Assembly (NCBI RefSeq): GCF_900217235.1
Contig: NZ_LT907975.1
Location: forward strand, 806,001 to 870,000
Reading direction: 5' to 3'
Source of the DNA: Pseudodesulfovibrio profundus
Lineage (GTDB): Bacteria > Desulfobacterota > Desulfovibrionia > Desulfovibrionales > Desulfovibrionaceae
DNA: 64,000 nt
The notes beneath the pieces were generated by a model. It saw only the letters and a list, made by a program, of their open reading frames with translations, did no database searches and was not told where the DNA came from. A program made the position numbers and the translations under genes. This document shows positions 2,671-35,279 of the stretch, piece after piece (positions within the stretch are counted from its first letter, which is position 1; the number at the start of each line of letters is the position of its first letter).

Positions 2671-3569
2671 CCAAAAAAATAAATGTTTTTAGTGCGTTAC
2701 TTTTACCTGTACTGATTTTTTCTGTCGCTGGCTGCGTCACGAAAACAGACTTTGAAACGTTGCAACTCGAAAGACGACAGGACCTGAACCGTATCAAACA
2801 GCTTGAAAACGAGCTGGCTGAAACCAAAAGCCTACTGCAGGATGAGATTGAGCAATCACAAACACCTGTTCGCCAGCGCACAGCCGATATGTGGGCAGAG
2901 CTTCAGGGACTGCGTACCGATATCGCGAAACTTCGCGGAAACGTGGATACGCTCAATATCAGACTGGATAGACAAGTTGGTCCGGCTCAGTCTGACCTGA
3001 CGTTAGGTGGACTTGACAGCCAATTGGATGAAATCGTTTTCATACTTGAAAATGAGCTCCAGGTTGATATGGCCAAGGTGAAAAAAGAAGCGGCGGCGAA
3101 TCCTGGTCAAACCACGCCCGAGGGTCTCCCGGAAAAGGTTACAGTTGGAGAACCGACTCCAGTCCCTGCCACTACCCCGCCTGCAGAAGATGCTGATCCA
3201 GCTAAAGCCCTTTATGACAAAGCATACGCATTGTACAAGGAAGGCGAGTTTGAAAAGGCTCGATCCTACTGGGCTGAATTCACAGATACATTTAAGGGCC
3301 ATCCTTTTTCTGCCAGTGCCTTTTTTTGGCAGGGGCAGTGCTACTTCAAACTCAAAGATTACGCCCGGGCTGCCATCCTCTTTGAAGACGTCATTGAACG
3401 GTTCAAAAAGAGTTCAAAATACAAATCGGCCCTTTTGAAAGCCGGGTACTGCTGGGATTATTTGAAGAAGCCTGAACTTGCCAAACTTCGCATGGAACAG
3501 GTCATCAACCAATTCCCCAAGTCTGTGGAAGCAACCCAGGCGAAGCGGTTTTTGGAAAAAAACAAATAA
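2667..3569 (+). CDS. YbgF/CpoB-like TPR lipoprotein
   Basis: A 300-residue envelope protein. It has a signal peptide ending in the lipobox SVAGC (lipidated Cys near residue 23), then a charged coiled-coil stretch rich in Leu, Glu, Arg and Gln, a proline/threonine-rich linker, and a C-terminal tetratricopeptide domain beginning around ALYDKAYALYKEGEFEKA. This is the architecture of the Tol-Pal-associated protein YbgF/CpoB, which in E. coli coordinates outer-membrane constriction with peptidoglycan synthesis. E. coli CpoB is periplasmic and not lipidated, so the lipobox is a difference. No tol or pal genes are adjacent. The start ATG at 2667 overlaps the preceding stop and gives the signal peptide; the frame extends upstream but only inside the previous gene. 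Confidence 0.85.
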   Translation: MTKKINVFSALLLPVLIFSVAGCVTKTDFETLQLERRQDLNRIKQLENELAETKSLLQDEIEQSQTPVRQRTADMWAELQGLRTDIAKLRGNVDTLNIRLDRQVGPAQSDLTLGGLDSQLDEIVFILENELQVDMAKVKKEAAANPGQTTPEGLPEKVTVGEPTPVPATTPPAEDADPAKALYDKAYALYKEGEFEKARSYWAEFTDTFKGHPFSASAFFWQGQCYFKLKDYARAAILFEDVIERFKKSSKYKSALLKAGYCWDYLKKPELAKLRMEQVINQFPKSVEATQAKRFLEKNK

Positions 3570-4624: not shown

Positions 4625-5362
4625 ATGACTGGCAACGAAGAACTCGTTCAAGAGATATTGGATAAAGTTTCCGCCGACCTTGGAAACAAGCTCAAAAACG
4701 CCATTAGTGTGGCGGTTGAAAAGGAAATAGCGGAGAATCTGTCACAAACACTCCTTGAAGGAGAGTTCTATCGCCGAGTCAACGATGACCTTCAAAGCGG
4801 TCTCAAGCAAATCTATCGGGAAGTAAAGGCCGCTCGGGGCGGATCTGAAATCAAGTCTATTGAAGCCGATATCGATCCTGAAGAACTGTTCAGCGAAACA
4901 TCAGATCAGCTTGATGCCGTACTGCAGACGACGGAAAAAGCAGCAGTGGACATCATTGAGATCGTGGAAAACCTCCAGGAGCTACAGGGCTCTGTCGCTT
5001 CAATTGTGAAGGGATTCGAGTCCGGCGGCGTAACTAAAGAGGACAGAGAGGCGCTCAAGGAGATCAACAACACCCTTGGTAATGATTTGTCCACCATCAT
5101 GGTCACGCTTAGCTTCCAGGACCTTACCGGACAACGCATCAAGATCATCATCAACTCCATCAGACAGGTGGAAAAAATCGTCCGAGAAGTCATGCTATCG
5201 ACAGGTCTCATGATCAAACAGCGGAAAGAAGAGCCACAACGAGATTTTGAATCCTTGTCCGAAGAGGCTAAAAACAAGGCAACATCTACCCTGTCCGGTC
5301 CAACAGCCGACACAAACCAGGATGATGTAGATGACCTCCTCGCCTCTCTCGGCCTTGATTAA
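4625..5362 (+). CDS. cheZ: Protein phosphatase CheZ
   Basis: Dephosphorylates CheY-P and so terminates the chemotaxis signal. The 245-residue protein is largely helical. The signature DLTGQR is present with Gln at about residue 170, equivalent to the catalytic Gln147 of E. coli CheZ. The C-terminal tail DDVDDLLASLGL is the amphipathic CheY-docking helix, joined by a flexible linker. It is last in the ileS-to-cheZ gene run. An IS element begins 10 nt after the stop codon, so the terminator that presumably ended this transcript (6694-6732) is now about 1.3 kb away, beyond the IS. Confidence 0.93.
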   Translation: MTGNEELVQEILDKVSADLGNKLKNAISVAVEKEIAENLSQTLLEGEFYRRVNDDLQSGLKQIYREVKAARGGSEIKSIEADIDPEELFSETSDQLDAVLQTTEKAAVDIIEIVENLQELQGSVASIVKGFESGGVTKEDREALKEINNTLGNDLSTIMVTLSFQDLTGQRIKIIINSIRQVEKIVREVMLSTGLMIKQRKEEPQRDFESLSEEAKNKATSTLSGPTADTNQDDVDDLLASLGLD

Positions 5363-5412
5363 AGACGTACCATGAGCCGTCCTGAAATAGGTTGACGGTT
5401 TTTGAAGGTTTC

Positions 5413-5446
5413 AATCAGGCTGTGGGGCTAGCCCCACAGCCTGATT
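5413..5446. repeat. 34-bp perfect palindrome at the orfB end of IS copy 1
   Basis: AATCAGGCTGTGGGGCT is followed directly by its exact reverse complement. It covers the orfB stop codon. It could act as a factor-independent or stalling hairpin that ends transposase transcription or blocks read-through from cheZ into the transposase antisense strand. There is no long T tract, so terminator activity is an inference. Confidence 0.8.
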
Positions 5447-6245
5447 CGTGTACATCGTTTGGCGTTCTCATTCCTAGGCTGAGATGTGGCCGTTGTGAAT
5501 TGTATATCTCAACGGATTCCCTCACCAGGGTATTGAGCTCTGCAAAGTCGTTGCATTTGGTGACCATGAACTCTTGCTTCAGAATTCCATTCATCCGTTC
5601 CGCCAAGGCATTTTGATAGCAGTCATAGCCATCTGTCATGGAAGGAACCATGCCGGATTCCTGGAGTTTTCTCTGGTAGACCGAAGAAGCGTATTGGAGT
5701 CCTCGATCTGAATGGTGAATTGTATTCACCCTCCTTCGCTTGTTTTCAACTGCCGCGTCCAGCGCTTTGGTTGTGCTTTCCGCACTGAGATCCCGGCTCA
5801 CGTTGTATCCCATTATCTTCCGGCTGAATGCATCTGTCACCAGCGACAGATAGCATGTTTGCTCACGTGTATTCACGTAGGTAATGTCGCTTACGAACAC
5901 CTGCTCAGGACATCTCGGTTGAACATCTTTCAACAAGTTGGGATGCTTTTTTAGCCAATGCTTCGAGTTGGTTGTCTTTGTATAGTTTTTCCGTCGCTTG
6001 ATGAGCATATGCTCTCGCCGCAGCAGGGAAAACAACCCATCACGTCCGAGCCTGATTCCCTTTGCGGAAAATGCGTCCTTCAACAGGTGGTACAGCTTTC
6101 GAGTCCCAAGGCGGGGCATCCTGGTCCGCACGTTCAGGACCATGGCCTTTGCCTCCTGATACATGGCTTCCCGTGCATCATGGCGCTTTTCAGCCTGATA
6201 CACGGACTGCCGACTGACCCCGAGCTGCCTGCAACAAGCAGACAA
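5415..6245 (-). CDS. IS3-family OrfB, DDE transposase catalytic part (copy 1)
   Basis: Catalytic rve-type integrase domain. The DDE residues lie in VFVSDITYVNT, HHSDRGLQYAS and ALAERMNGILKQEF. As drawn it would start at TTG (276 residues), but the frame is open upstream past the A6G slippery site in orfA, so the active product is most probably the OrfAB frameshift fusion rather than a free OrfB. Its stop codon lies inside a 34-bp perfect palindrome (5413-5446). The protein is identical to OrfB of copy 2 and appears intact, so the element may be active. Confidence 0.94.
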   Translation of the reverse strand: MSACCRQLGVSRQSVYQAEKRHDAREAMYQEAKAMVLNVRTRMPRLGTRKLYHLLKDAFSAKGIRLGRDGLFSLLRREHMLIKRRKNYTKTTNSKHWLKKHPNLLKDVQPRCPEQVFVSDITYVNTREQTCYLSLVTDAFSRKIMGYNVSRDLSAESTTKALDAAVENKRRRVNTIHHSDRGLQYASSVYQRKLQESGMVPSMTDGYDCYQNALAERMNGILKQEFMVTKCNDFAELNTLVRESVEIYNSQRPHLSLGMRTPNDVHESGCGASPTA

Positions 6246-6299
6246 GCTTATTTGTCTTTCTCTCTGAAGACTTCGTGCAGCTCGGGGGTAAGCTTTTTT
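6218..6299 (-). other. Programmed -1 frameshift signal of IS copy 1
   Basis: The slippery heptamer A AAA AAG in the orfA frame reads at 6299-6293 on the minus strand. It is followed after 5 nt by an 11-bp perfect stem (CCCCGAGCTGC with GCAGCTCGGGG, 6287-6277 and 6228-6218). This is the standard IS3-family arrangement for producing the OrfAB transposase. The mirror copy is at 33009-33090. Confidence 0.85.
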
Positions 6300-6646
6300 C
6301 TTATAGAAGTCCCAAACTCGCGGTCGGAAATCTCAATCATTTTATTGAGAAGCGCGGTCTTGATCTTTTCTTCCTCAAGCTCTTTCTCCAGCCGTTTGAT
6401 CTTCTGGACCGGTGTTTCTCTGGCTTTTGGGTCTTTTCGGGAATGTACCATGGACTTGCTCCAATCAAGGGTGCCGTGCTTCCTGAGCCACTTCAGCACA
6501 GTGCTTCGCCCTTGAATACCATAAAGAGCCTGAGCCTGCTTGTACGTCATCTCGCCCTTTTCCACCTGTGCCACAACCGACAATTTAAAGGCCATCGTGT
6601 AATCGCGTTGGGTGCGTCTAACTCGCTGTTTGGATTTGTCTTCCAT
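6248..6646 (-). CDS. IS3-family OrfA (copy 1)
   Basis: A 132-residue DNA-binding subunit of the transposase. The N-terminal half has a helix-turn-helix (AFKLSVVAQVEKGEMTYKQA through VLKWLRKHGTLDW), and the C-terminal half is a leucine-zipper-like coil (VQKIKRLEKELEEEKIKTAL). ATG is at 6646. The sequence A-AAA-AAG (6299-6293 on the minus strand) near its end should redirect a fraction of ribosomes to the -1 frame, giving a fused OrfAB of about 410 residues. The protein is identical to OrfA of copy 2. Confidence 0.95.
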   Translation of the reverse strand: MEDKSKQRVRRTQRDYTMAFKLSVVAQVEKGEMTYKQAQALYGIQGRSTVLKWLRKHGTLDWSKSMVHSRKDPKARETPVQKIKRLEKELEEEKIKTALLNKMIEISDREFGTSIRKKLTPELHEVFREKDK

Positions 6647-6693
6647 AAATAGGTCCTCTGGGTGTCAACCTATTTCAGGACGGGACACCAATC

Positions 6694-6732
6694 AAAAAAA
6701 AGCCCGTCACTGCATGTGACGGGCTTTTTTTT
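6694..6732. terminator. Bidirectional rho-independent terminator (mgtE / originally cheZ)
   Basis: A8, 9-bp stem GCCCGTCAC/GTGACGGGC with loop TGCAT, then T8. It is symmetric and should work on both strands. It serves mgtE on the minus strand and presumably served cheZ on the plus strand before the IS inserted. The IS end is 6 nt from the A tract. Confidence 0.93.
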
Positions 6733-6749
6733 GATCAAATGTTTGGCTC

Positions 6750-8081
6750 CTATAAAAGGAGTATGCCTGCAAGTCCCAGGAAACTCCAAAAGCCTATGGC
6801 ATCCGTAATAGTCGTAAGGAAAATCGATGATGCCTGAGCTGGATCTCGGCCAATTTCCTTAAGAATAAGCGGAATGGAAGAGCCAGCCAACGCACCGACC
6901 AACATGTCGATAACCAAGGCTATTCCCATACACGCAGCCAGCTTGAAATCACCGGTAAATGCAATGATTGCCAACAGCACGAGCATAGAGATCAGGCCAC
7001 TGTTGATCAGGCCAATCTTGATCTCACGAAAAACAGCGAACCACGCTTTTTTACGATCAAATTTTTCCATTGCCAACTGACGAATCATGACCGCCAAGGC
7101 TTGCTGTCCCGTATTACCTGCCTGGTTGGAAACAATGTGCATAAGTGCTGCAAGGATTGCCATGGCTGCAATCGTATCATCGAATAAATGGACAACATAT
7201 GCGGCTATAGCCGAGTTGGCCACGTTGATAATGAGCCACGGAATACGCTTTTTAACTGAAAAGATAACGGGCGAATCGGTTGTTTCATCAGCACCAGCAC
7301 CAACCATTGTCTGCATATCTTCACTGGCTTCTTCATGAATAATGTCAATGACATCATCAACAGTGACGACACCGAGCAGGCGATTGCCAAAATCGACAAC
7401 AGGCAGAGCAAGCAGGTTATATTTTGCGATATGGTGCGCAACCTCTTCCTTGTCGATATTATAGCCGACAGAGATAAGATTCTGCGTTTTAACCAAATCC
7501 TTCAACCTGACACCGCGTTTGGCAAGCAGGAGTTCTCGTAAAGAGACAACTCCAACCAGTCGATCCTTGGCATCAGTCAAGTAGGCGTAATATGGTATTT
7601 CCTTATCTTCAACTTCCTGACGTAATTTGGTGATGGCCTCATCAACATGAAGGTCCTGATCAAGGATCACGACCTCCGTATTCATGACACCACCAGCAGT
7701 ATCAGGACCAAACGTCAACAGAGTCTTGAGTTCGGCTCGCTCTTCCGCAGGCACTCGCTGAAGAAGAGCCTGACGGAGGACTTCGTCCAGTCCTTCCAAC
7801 AGATCAGTCGCGTCATCCGGCGACATCTGGTTAACAATGCGTGCAGCGAGTCCTCTATTCAGATTCTGAATGAGCGCGATCTGGTCATTGGATTCCATCT
7901 CCGCAATAGACTCGGCAGCATCCTTGATTGGAAGCTGTTTGACGAACTTAACCTGATCCGACATATCAAGACCTTCAATGGTCTCCGCGGCATCAGCCGG
8001 GTGCTGAGCTTCAAGCTCGGCAGCTGTCAGGCCATCAATCAATTCATCACCTTTAATGTGCATTTCCTCTTTTACGCTCAT
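6750..8081 (-). CDS. mgtE: Magnesium transporter MgtE
   Basis: Inner-membrane Mg2+ channel/transporter, 443 residues. The N-terminal superhelical MgtE_N domain spans roughly residues 15-130. A tandem CBS pair spans roughly 135-255 (VMNTEVVILDQDLHVDEAI; LLALPVVDFGNRLLGVVTVDD) and acts as the Mg2+ sensor by family knowledge. Five C-terminal transmembrane helices include the signature GNTGQQALAVMIRQ. Length and domain order are normal. It is a single-gene unit, transcribed away from nadC, with a strong terminator directly downstream. Confidence 0.95.
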   Translation of the reverse strand: MSVKEEMHIKGDELIDGLTAAELEAQHPADAAETIEGLDMSDQVKFVKQLPIKDAAESIAEMESNDQIALIQNLNRGLAARIVNQMSPDDATDLLEGLDEVLRQALLQRVPAEERAELKTLLTFGPDTAGGVMNTEVVILDQDLHVDEAITKLRQEVEDKEIPYYAYLTDAKDRLVGVVSLRELLLAKRGVRLKDLVKTQNLISVGYNIDKEEVAHHIAKYNLLALPVVDFGNRLLGVVTVDDVIDIIHEEASEDMQTMVGAGADETTDSPVIFSVKKRIPWLIINVANSAIAAYVVHLFDDTIAAMAILAALMHIVSNQAGNTGQQALAVMIRQLAMEKFDRKKAWFAVFREIKIGLINSGLISMLVLLAIIAFTGDFKLAACMGIALVIDMLVGALAGSSIPLILKEIGRDPAQASSIFLTTITDAIGFWSFLGLAGILLL

Positions 8082-32575: not shown

Positions 32576-32613
32576 AAAAAAAGCCCCCGCTCATATGAGC
32601 GGGGGCTTTTTTT
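32576..32613. terminator. Bidirectional rho-independent terminator (small protein / originally ugd)
   Basis: A7, GCCCCCGCTC/GAGCGGGGGC stem around ATAT, then T7. It ends the small acidic protein gene and presumably once ended the ugd transcript on the other strand. IS copy 2 begins 7 nt after the T tract. Confidence 0.93.
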
Positions 32614-32661
32614 GTAGGTATGTCCCGTCCTGAAATAGGTTGACACCCAGAGGACCTATTT

Positions 32662-33060
32662 ATGGAAGACAAATCCAAACAGCGAGTTAGACGCACCCAA
32701 CGCGATTACACGATGGCCTTTAAATTGTCGGTTGTGGCACAGGTGGAAAAGGGCGAGATGACGTACAAGCAGGCTCAGGCTCTTTATGGTATTCAAGGGC
32801 GAAGCACTGTGCTGAAGTGGCTCAGGAAGCACGGCACCCTTGATTGGAGCAAGTCCATGGTACATTCCCGAAAAGACCCAAAAGCCAGAGAAACACCGGT
32901 CCAGAAGATCAAACGGCTGGAGAAAGAGCTTGAGGAAGAAAAGATCAAGACCGCGCTTCTCAATAAAATGATTGAGATTTCCGACCGCGAGTTTGGGACT
33001 TCTATAAGAAAAAAGCTTACCCCCGAGCTGCACGAAGTCTTCAGAGAGAAAGACAAATAA
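32662..33060 (+). CDS. IS3-family OrfA (copy 2)
   Basis: A 132-residue HTH protein identical to OrfA of copy 1. It starts ATG 32662 (MEDKSKQRVRRTQRDYTMAF), 41 bp inside the element. The A-AAA-AAG slippery site at 33009-33015 allows fusion to OrfB at about residue 118. Confidence 0.95.
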   Translation: MEDKSKQRVRRTQRDYTMAFKLSVVAQVEKGEMTYKQAQALYGIQGRSTVLKWLRKHGTLDWSKSMVHSRKDPKARETPVQKIKRLEKELEEEKIKTALLNKMIEISDREFGTSIRKKLTPELHEVFREKDK

Positions 33061-33090
33061 GCTTGTCTGCTTGTTGCAGGCAGCTCGGGG
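33009..33090 (+). other. Programmed -1 frameshift signal of IS copy 2
   Basis: Slippery heptamer A AAA AAG at 33009-33015 in the orfA frame. After 5 nt, an 11-bp perfect stem follows, 33021-33031 with 33080-33090. Its loop contains a second small hairpin, AGACAA/TTGTCT at 33051-33068, which also covers the orfA stop. After slippage the frame reads A-Y-P-R and continues without a stop into OrfB. Confidence 0.87.
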
Positions 33091-33893
33091 TCAGTCGGCA
33101 GTCCGTGTATCAGGCTGAAAAGCGCCATGATGCACGGGAAGCCATGTATCAGGAGGCAAAGGCCATGGTCCTGAACGTGCGGACCAGGATGCCCCGCCTT
33201 GGGACTCGAAAGCTGTACCACCTGTTGAAGGACGCATTTTCCGCAAAGGGAATCAGGCTCGGACGTGATGGGTTGTTTTCCCTGCTGCGGCGAGAGCATA
33301 TGCTCATCAAGCGACGGAAAAACTATACAAAGACAACCAACTCGAAGCATTGGCTAAAAAAGCATCCCAACTTGTTGAAAGATGTTCAACCGAGATGTCC
33401 TGAGCAGGTGTTCGTAAGCGACATTACCTACGTGAATACACGTGAGCAAACATGCTATCTGTCGCTGGTGACAGATGCATTCAGCCGGAAGATAATGGGA
33501 TACAACGTGAGCCGGGATCTCAGTGCGGAAAGCACAACCAAAGCGCTGGACGCGGCAGTTGAAAACAAGCGAAGGAGGGTGAATACAATTCACCATTCAG
33601 ATCGAGGACTCCAATACGCTTCTTCGGTCTACCAGAGAAAACTCCAGGAATCCGGCATGGTTCCTTCCATGACAGATGGCTATGACTGCTATCAAAATGC
33701 CTTGGCGGAACGGATGAATGGAATTCTGAAGCAAGAGTTCATGGTCACCAAATGCAACGACTTTGCAGAGCTCAATACCCTGGTGAGGGAATCCGTTGAG
33801 ATATACAATTCACAACGGCCACATCTCAGCCTAGGAATGAGAACGCCAAACGATGTACACGAATCAGGCTGTGGGGCTAGCCCCACAGCCTGA
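33063..33893 (+). CDS. IS3-family OrfB, DDE transposase catalytic part (copy 2)
   Basis: A 276-residue frame identical to OrfB of copy 1, with DDE residues in VFVSDITYVNT, HHSDRGLQY and LAERMNGIL. It lies in the -1 frame relative to orfA. The nominal TTG start is doubtful; the active enzyme is most likely the OrfAB fusion of about 410 residues. It ends in a palindrome at 33862-33895. Confidence 0.94.
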   Translation: MSACCRQLGVSRQSVYQAEKRHDAREAMYQEAKAMVLNVRTRMPRLGTRKLYHLLKDAFSAKGIRLGRDGLFSLLRREHMLIKRRKNYTKTTNSKHWLKKHPNLLKDVQPRCPEQVFVSDITYVNTREQTCYLSLVTDAFSRKIMGYNVSRDLSAESTTKALDAAVENKRRRVNTIHHSDRGLQYASSVYQRKLQESGMVPSMTDGYDCYQNALAERMNGILKQEFMVTKCNDFAELNTLVRESVEIYNSQRPHLSLGMRTPNDVHESGCGASPTA

Positions 33894-33895
33894 TT
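33862..33895. repeat. 34-bp perfect palindrome at the orfB end of IS copy 2
   Basis: Same palindrome as at 5413-5446. It contains the orfB stop codon (33891-33893) and would form a very stable GC-rich hairpin at the end of the transposase transcript. Confidence 0.8.
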
Positions 33896-33941
33896 GAAAC
33901 CTTCAAAAACCGTCAACCTATTTCAGGACGGCTCAGTACAT

Positions 33942-35279
33942 TTACTTTACAGGCTGTCGACCGATGCTGAAGTAAGCAAAACCGGCTTCTCCCATACGTT
34001 CAGGCTGATAAAGGTTGCGACCGTCGAAAACGATGGGCGCTTTCAATTGACGCTTGATGTTATCAAAATCGGGATCACGGAACTGATTCCAATCGGTCAC
34101 AACGGCCAGGGCATCGGCGTCTTCGAGCACCGCATTCTGATCGTCAATGATCTCCAATCCCTCAATGTCTCCGATTTCTTCGCGAGCCCTTTCGTTGGCC
34201 ACAGGGTCGTAAGCGCGTACTTTCATTCCAAGCGCTGTCAGATCTTTAATGATTTCCGTAGCAGATGCCTCACGAATATCATCAGTGTTGGCCTTAAAAG
34301 CAATTCCCCACAATGCCAAGGTGCGTCCCTTCACCCCACCCTGAGGCTCGAAGTATTCTTTGATCTTATCAGCGAGTACATGCTTTTGGGCGTTGTTGAC
34401 GCTGTCCACGGACTGAATAAGACGAGCTTCGTAGCCGTAATCCTTCGCCGTATCGATGAGTGCTTTGACATCCTTGGGAAAACAAGAACCACCATAACCA
34501 ACACCGGGATAAATAAAGCTGTAGCCAATTCGGCTATCAGAGCCGATTCCAGCGCGAACCTCGGTGACATTCGCTCCGACGCGTTCACAAATATTGGCCA
34601 CTTCGTTGATGAAAGAAATCTTGGTGGCAAGCATGCAGTTGGCGGCATACTTGGTCATCTCTGCAGAACGCACTCCCATAACGATCAGCTTCTCACGGCT
34701 GCGAGCAAAGGGACCGTACAACTGCTGCAAAACGGCTGCGGATTCGGCATTCTCAGTTCCAACGACAACCCGGTCAGGCTTCATGAAGTCATTGACCGCG
34801 TCACCTTCTTTCAGGAACTCAGGATTGGAAACTACATCGAAAGGTATTGATTCTCCGCGCTTTTCCAACTCTTCGTTGATAATACCACGGACACGATCAG
34901 CCGTACCGACAGGGACTGTGGATTTATCAACGACGATTTTCGGTCCAGTCATCTTCTGGCCGATTTCTCGAGCAACTGCATCAACATATTTGAGATCGCA
35001 GCGTCCATCAGGCAGGCTAGGCGTTCCCACGGTGATGAAAATGACCTGGCAATCCGCCATTCCTTCTTCAAGGCTCGTGGTGAAATTCAAACGTCCCTGC
35101 GCCGTATTACGCTTTACCAGGTCTTCCAGACCCGGCTCATAGATGTGCACTTTGCCGGCTTCGAGAGTTTCAACAACCTTCGGATTCACATCCACACAAA
35201 AAATATTATTTCCCATCTCGGCAAAGCAGGCAGCAGAAACCAATCCCACATACCCAGTGCCAACTATACAAACATTCAT
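33942..35279 (-). CDS. ugd: UDP-glucose 6-dehydrogenase
   Basis: Oxidises UDP-glucose to UDP-glucuronate with two NAD+, for surface polysaccharide precursors. It has 445 residues. The N-terminal Rossmann motif is GTGYVGLVSAACFAEMG. The catalytic Cys lies in YPGVGYGGSCFPKDVKAL. The C-terminal UDP-binding domain (LALWGIAFKANTDDIREAS) is complete. It is a single gene. The IS ends 6 nt from its stop codon and separates it from the terminator at 32576-32613, so its transcript now runs into the IS antisense to the transposase. Confidence 0.96.
   Translation of the reverse strand: MNVCIVGTGYVGLVSAACFAEMGNNIFCVDVNPKVVETLEAGKVHIYEPGLEDLVKRNTAQGRLNFTTSLEEGMADCQVIFITVGTPSLPDGRCDLKYVDAVAREIGQKMTGPKIVVDKSTVPVGTADRVRGIINEELEKRGESIPFDVVSNPEFLKEGDAVNDFMKPDRVVVGTENAESAAVLQQLYGPFARSREKLIVMGVRSAEMTKYAANCMLATKISFINEVANICERVGANVTEVRAGIGSDSRIGYSFIYPGVGYGGSCFPKDVKALIDTAKDYGYEARLIQSVDSVNNAQKHVLADKIKEYFEPQGGVKGRTLALWGIAFKANTDDIREASATEIIKDLTALGMKVRAYDPVANERAREEIGDIEGLEIIDDQNAVLEDADALAVVTDWNQFRDPDFDNIKRQLKAPIVFDGRNLYQPERMGEAGFAYFSIGRQPVK

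Follow-up and report, generated by a model that had tools for sequence, protein, structure and literature searches.

The window, the whole 64,000-nt stretch of DNA analyzed here and the source of all unprefixed coordinates, contains two copies of a 1,315 bp insertion sequence (IS) of the IS3 family with termini TGTCCC...GGCTCA. Copy 1 lies on the minus strand at 5373..6687, with its orfA end at 6687 and its orfB end at 5373, and is flanked by a CCA target duplication read directly at 5370..5372 on the orfB side and 6688..6690 on the orfA side. Copy 2, identical in sequence, occupies the plus strand at 32621..33935 with its orfA end at 32621, between GTA duplications at 32618..32620 (orfA side) and 33936..33938 (orfB side). 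In copy 1, orfA (6248..6646, minus strand) encodes 132 aa with an HTH_28 domain, while orfB is an open frame of 305 aa (5415..6332, minus strand) in the −1 frame relative to orfA and carries a DD(35)E transposase domain. The A6G at 6293..6299 (minus strand, IS position 389) is the candidate slip site for −1 frameshifting, a putative role that we presume from the IS3 family. Near the orfB end, 40 nt inside the right inverted repeat (IRR), is a perfect 34-nt palindrome without a T-tract (5413..5446 in copy 1, 33862..33895 in copy 2), at a position that matches an inward-facing hairpin in related elements.

Both copies lie next to an intrinsic terminator. The terminator between cheZ and mgtE (6694..6732) has tracts on both sides, with A8 at 6694-6701, a stem at 6702-6710 and 6716-6724, a loop at 6711-6715, and T8 at 6725-6732; an automated terminator scan missed it. 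Reading outward from the orfA end of copy 1, the sequence is CCAATC, A8, GCCCGTCAC-TGCAT-GTGACGGGC, and T8 (6688-6732). The terminator at copy 2 (32576..32613) consists of A7 at 32576-32582, a stem at 32583-32592 and 32597-32606, and T7 at 32607-32613, which reads outward from the orfA end as TACCTAC, A7, GCCCCCGCTC-ATAT-GAGCGGGGGC, and T7. In each case 14 nt separate the stem base from the IS. On the other side of copy 1, cheZ (PF04344; 4625..5362, plus strand) ends 10 nt before the element and is severed from the terminator, which the convergent mgtE (6750..8081, minus strand) retains. A convergent UDP-glucose/GDP-mannose dehydrogenase gene (33942..35279, minus strand), ending 6 nt after copy 2, is likewise severed, and the neighbor beyond that hairpin is a short frame without a Pfam match. 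The original prediction had described this shared distance and orientation, the same spacers, tracts and duplications, and entry between a gene stop and its terminator; the observation on the two window copies is confirmed. Its further claim that insertion separates genes from their terminators is right for the IRR-side gene but not for the gene beyond the hairpin, which keeps its terminator, as is usual at these convergent sites.

Related genomes preserve the first site without the element. MgtE orthologues occur in 34 of the 36 genomes of the genus, and 29 besides the source genome were examined for empty sites. The end of cheZ lies within 320 nt of mgtE, with a hairpin before it, in 26 of the 29. 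By a computed count, 23 have the mgtE and cheZ stop codons 74-109 nt apart with the hairpin present and the element absent, a gap too close for an element and thus an empty site.

OrfB scores 249 bits against the IS3 family model NF033516 (cut-off 160). Pfam finds integrase core domains and a helix-turn-helix in the element and no reverse transcriptase, and no Rfam match was found at 5300-6800. The two-ORF layout read from the sequence, with orfB in the −1 frame over A6G, is that of the IS3 family, as are the related terminal repeats together with a 3-bp duplication in 16 of 17 copies in this genome. Members of this family typically move by a copy-out, paste-in route through a circle. A DNA search finds the 17 copies, and an OrfB search in which all 77 candidates were scored recovers exactly these, with 99-100% identity. 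Of the 17, 16 are complete and identical, hence probably recent, and both pieces of the interrupted seventeenth (L021) have the same sequence. In this copy (L021:868-3007) the interruption measures about 0.8 kb, falls on CTAG, the middle of the internal palindrome, comes with a 4-bp repeat, and is perhaps another element that favors palindrome centres. Two copies lie in inverted order about 2.5 kb apart (L014:2098 and L014:5886), and the latter is the one without a target duplication, which suggests a rearrangement. The genome holds 75 IS3-type OrfB matches, among them several sets of identical or nearly identical copies, and has probably undergone a recent IS expansion.

The association with terminators extends through the genome. 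Fifteen of the 17 copies lie 12-14 nt from the base of a hairpin stem, and their orfA end (IRL) faces the stem in every case; the mean distance is 12.9 nt with an SD of 0.62. The two exceptions are L022, inside a gene at GGC-TTTTTT where a hairpin is absent, and L024, where the hairpin is 25 nt away. Strict and loose scans also each return 15 of 17, with different sets, as the strict scan drops L009 through its stem-trimming rule and keeps L024. Under the strict test, 118 of 9,353 random flank positions on the fetched stretches have a terminator-like stem 4-26 nt away, giving a binomial p of about 4e-27, and the orfB end (IRR side) scores in just 2 of 73 cases. The control set comprised 41 other IS3 copies, 32 from the same genome (sets of 6, 6, 10 and 10, the last two with the same ends, drawn from 58 other OrfB matches) and 9 from Leeuwenhoekiella. 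By eye none of the 41 has such geometry (Fisher p 5e-12), nor do any of the 32 from the same genome alone. The strict scan accepts 2 of 41, L214 with an AT-rich stem at 6 nt and L136 at 26 nt, while the opposite end of the controls never passes (0 of 41); in control L133 a terminator lies about 50 nt away. The original prediction of a terminator-targeting IS3-family element is thus borne out by this tabulation of all copies against random placement, by the single orientation and narrow spacing, and likewise by many relatives. The opposite outcome, copies in genes with no enrichment near terminators, was not seen, with just 1 of 17 in a gene.

The relatives are the best 80 of 582 confirmed loci from a scan of genome contigs, with OrfB 54-63% identical, and belong to Bacteroidota, Pseudomonadota and Desulfobacterota. 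At the 67 loci with a readable orfA end and flank, the terminator geometry is present in 53 by the strict test and in 59 by the loose, apex-based test, so that 8 to 14 of 67 fail. Duplications of 3 bp are found in 42 of the 57 relatives with both ends. Among more distant elements, those of Crocinitomicaceae (46%) pass the strict test in 3 of 4 cases, the fourth being an imperfect hairpin by eye, and L194 also has a hairpin. The counts are 2 of 4 by eye and 1 of 4 by the strict test for Shewanella elements at 48%, and 2 of 4 by the strict test for those at 58%; one 42% element lacks a terminator. A later set comprised ten loci from viral contigs and one plasmid, with L269 (without flank) and L272 left out. 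By eye, 6 of its 8 readable ends lie at hairpins, two of the six being homologous sites, while L270 has a T-tract without a hairpin and L266 has neither. On the Flavobacterium plasmid of this set (L273:3364-3376), the annotated neighboring gene ends inside the IRR, whose end is at 3376, so that the IS supplies its stop codon.

When 148 relatives were searched at the DNA level, other species gave short stretches and no full copy; these stretches include a remnant in a genome of the same genus (G003) and a decayed start in G011. The G003 remnant (L027:1476-1544) is short and MITE-like, has both element ends with CCC on each side, and lies 13 nt after a terminator; a search of the genus, 36 genomes in all, shows its inner pattern again only in the window element's own copies. 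A search of 395 genomes of the phylum at E 1e-40 returned one distant match besides the source genome. A quick tree with long branches, which does not prove a single origin, places all rows labeled terminator-targeting in one supported group of 65 rows (51 labeled with, 6 without and 8 unknown, by the loose test, or through its other copies for L066). The catalytic triad D120, D180 and E216, with 35 residues between D180 and E216, is kept by at least 97% of the 64 rows of the clade. Sixteen OrfB columns are as highly conserved in these rows and occur in at most one of nine outgroup rows. They include T204, D205, G206, Y207 and D208, ahead of the catalytic glutamate, and in the 42% element without a terminator D205, G206, Y207 and D208 are all changed. 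This loop is a correlate of shared descent and no more than a candidate for a part in target choice.

For the window's element the spacing points to a landmark. Longer stems put the loop apex correspondingly farther from the insertion (slope 0.98), which places the landmark at the stem base or the start of the T-tract; with this slope and the base SD of 0.62, the apex is rejected as landmark for this element only. Among pooled relatives the apex distance is steadier than the stem-base distance (SD 1.14 versus 1.60, slope 0.12), so the landmark is settled for the window's element alone. Spacing is also a property of each element. It is 12-14 nt in the window's element, 14 in three copies of Tenacibaculum MAR_2009_124, 15 in three of T. 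skagerrakense, and 17-18 in seven of Leeuwenhoekiella, whose reference was corrected by one base. The elements differ at a Kruskal p of 1e-4, a value that predates this correction, which widens the difference, and the pooled within-element SD is 0.8. This test left out L170, L179, L181, L107 and L182 through a score or distance limit; by eye, L170 and L107 have imperfect hairpins.

The tracts set the targets apart from other hairpins. Fourteen of 15 targets in the source genome have tracts on both sides, one has a tract on one side, and none lacks them, against 4, 23 and 97 of 124 background hairpins. Targets of relatives have both tracts in 29 cases and one in 9, against a background of 10 with both, 27 with one and 96 with none. 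This comparison covers the 53 of 84 sites that pass a hairpin score limit, and the background for the source genome comes from 134 kb of fetched stretches.

Several explanations could account for such an arrangement. The hairpin adjoins the element at 15 of 17 copies and might be part of it or carried along with it; its sequence varies by site, the duplication lies between hairpin and element, and the cheZ-mgtE hairpin stands without the element in the empty sites described above, so that this explanation is contradicted and keeps practically no probability. Positions beyond gene ends are probably harmless, and random insertion followed by selection could leave copies there. Such a process predicts neither the single orientation nor the narrow spacing and is contradicted by both; the other IS3 copies of the same genome lack the geometry, and the identical copies are probably recent, which makes it very improbable. 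A more serious proposal, though one we consider unlikely, is that the transposase reads a linear motif, GGC(C) plus a T-tract about 14 nt from the cut, that is frequent at terminators by chance. All 17 copies in this genome, both exceptions included, have a C at −15, and 15-16 of them have T at positions −12 to −9. The hairpin-less sites L022 and, in relatives, L182 and L270 keep the C and a run of 6-7 T in the same register, which indicates that recognition is partly of plain sequence or the T-tract and that a hairpin is not strictly needed; a T-tract alone, these sites suggest, can sometimes suffice. However, background places of equal motif score have a stem in just 27 of 109 cases at a score of at least 8, compared to 15 of 15 IS sites, and in 12 of 29 at a score of at least 11, compared to 14 of 14. 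The score is lower in L022 and L024, and this background, 191 kb of fetched stretches, includes at least one true IS site visible from a neighboring copy. The A-tract on the far side is enriched too. Stems at IS sites thus exceed those of the motif-matched background, so stem and T-tract both count, and the linear GGCC-T motif contributes without explaining the targeting.

Transcription could also mark the site, through RNA polymerase paused at the terminator or through the RNA hairpin. The sites are terminators, and a constant distance from the stem base, as in the window's element, is what a polymerase would keep. The orientation of neighboring genes bears on this point. By a codon-model gene caller, the 15 hairpin sites of the source genome comprise 12 between convergent genes, 2 with both neighbors on the plus strand (++) and 1 with both on the minus strand (--). 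Among relatives, 49 sites with both neighbors called comprise 31 convergent, 7 (++) and 11 (--), and ten more have one neighbor only; two gene callers differ at some places. Neither set includes a divergent pair. The T-tract is the stronger in 8 of 9 (++) sites, while the 12 (--) sites comprise 6 with a stronger A-tract, 5 with no difference and 1 with the reverse (p 4e-4 between the two groups). The terminator therefore tends to belong to the left gene at (++) sites, after which the element apparently inserts, and to the right gene at (--) sites, before which it inserts. Insertion on either side of one-sided terminators, together with the lack of divergent sites, probably means that DNA and not transcription direction is read. 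As far as the gene calls allow, this speaks against coupling to transcription, which we regard as improbable, although unnoticed antisense transcription could weaken the point.

A second hairpin is built into most of the relatives themselves. Of 60 distinct 3' ends, 57 have it, 28-50 nt inside the IRR. The 8 positions on its inner side include at least 5 A in every one of the 57, and the 8 on its outer side at least 5 T in 20. For transcription arriving from outside, the inner A-tract reads as a T-tract behind the hairpin. In an alignment of 36 rows (35 of 51 dereplicated relatives plus the window's element), seven of eight stem pairs change on both sides, in 82 such cells versus 21 in shuffles. 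The fraction of paired cells is 87% versus 57% and the covariation 0.712 versus 0.163, each unmatched in 500 shuffles; counts of changed pairs and of pair types show no excess over shuffles. The window's element has its 34-nt palindrome at that place and lacks the T-tract. The inner A-tract may be partly due to the lysine codons of orfB. Two control IS3 families also have 3' palindromes, without the A-tract, and two other IS3-family elements of this genome (L133, L139) have perfect palindromes of 32 and at least 40 nt, 75-79 nt inside the orfB end. The built-in hairpin would perhaps replace the terminator lost by the IRR-side gene and guard the element against antisense transcription.

These comparisons of sequence make it highly probable that the machinery by which this IS3-family element transposes picks out intrinsic terminators. 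In 15 of 17 copies of the window's element, insertion is at a constant 12-14 nt from where a GC stem with A- and T-tracts begins, with the IRL toward the stem and 3-bp duplications, and relatives keep similar, element-specific spacings of about 13 to 18 nt. Within gene-calling limits, the sites either follow a terminator or separate a stop codon from its terminator, so that transcription direction is not decisive. The transpososome would read a DNA feature, the stem (as a duplex dyad or an extruded hairpin) with its adjoining T-tract, rather than a terminating RNA polymerase. The benefit would be a safe site that leaves genes intact. The host terminator would shield the transposase genes from transcripts entering at the orfA side, while in most relatives the inward-facing hairpin and T-tract would stop transcripts from the other side and replace the lost terminator. 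Insertion about 12 to 18 nt from hairpins, with one facing, probably lets the element spread with little harm to its host.

A wider reading, on which belief and doubt are nearly balanced with doubt slightly ahead, is that a multi-phylum IS3 clade practices terminator targeting as a neutral exchange. The element would insert at a fixed DNA distance from the hairpin, cut one of two convergent genes off from the terminator they share, keep that host terminator as a shield on the transposase side, and bring a conserved inward-facing terminator for the severed gene; the recognition part may be the loop before the catalytic glutamate. Small DDE transposases are usually viewed as nearly random in target choice or as readers of short sequences. 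This two-gene element, in contrast, appears to read a structural class of targets, present in bacterial genomes as many unrelated sequences, almost to the nucleotide and in a single polarity. If so, target choice by DDE transposases and retroviral-type integrases becomes testable in a compact system whose natural variants differ in spacing. It would also provide a natural route to placing DNA past the ends of genes, and where a genome has no RNA data, copies would point to its terminators.

Among the titles and abstract starts listed from the openly licensed literature, no report of a terminator-targeting insertion sequence was found; an earlier note may exist in ISfinder or TnPedia. The named IS3 elements on plasmids (IS600, IS3, ISKpn18 and others) have an IS3 transposase too, with OrfB 28-37% identical among the 60 matches listed of at least 5,000; in this comparison of OrfB, the clade's own loop T204-D-G-Y-D208 before the catalytic glutamate sets it apart from them. 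The functional analogue is the bacterial class C, or group IIC, introns, which insert beside intrinsic terminators according to PMC3522654, which cites Robart et al. 2007. Both adjoin intrinsic terminators. Group IIC introns, however, are retroelements based on RNA, and downstream of the terminator they base-pair with short motifs as well, while this element has a DDE transposase, makes 3-bp duplications, and lies on either side relative to transcription. The group II ribozyme and reverse transcriptase of these introns are absent here by Rfam at 5300-6800 and by Pfam. Elements that target REP sequences (IS1397, ISKpn1 and ISPsy8 of IS3, and IS621 of IS110) include IS3 members that choose extragenic palindromes, as described in PMC1525189. 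They insert into, and break, one repeat family. The element described here, in contrast, settles beside unrelated hairpins and leaves them whole, with 15 of 17 insertions 12-14 nt outside the stem.
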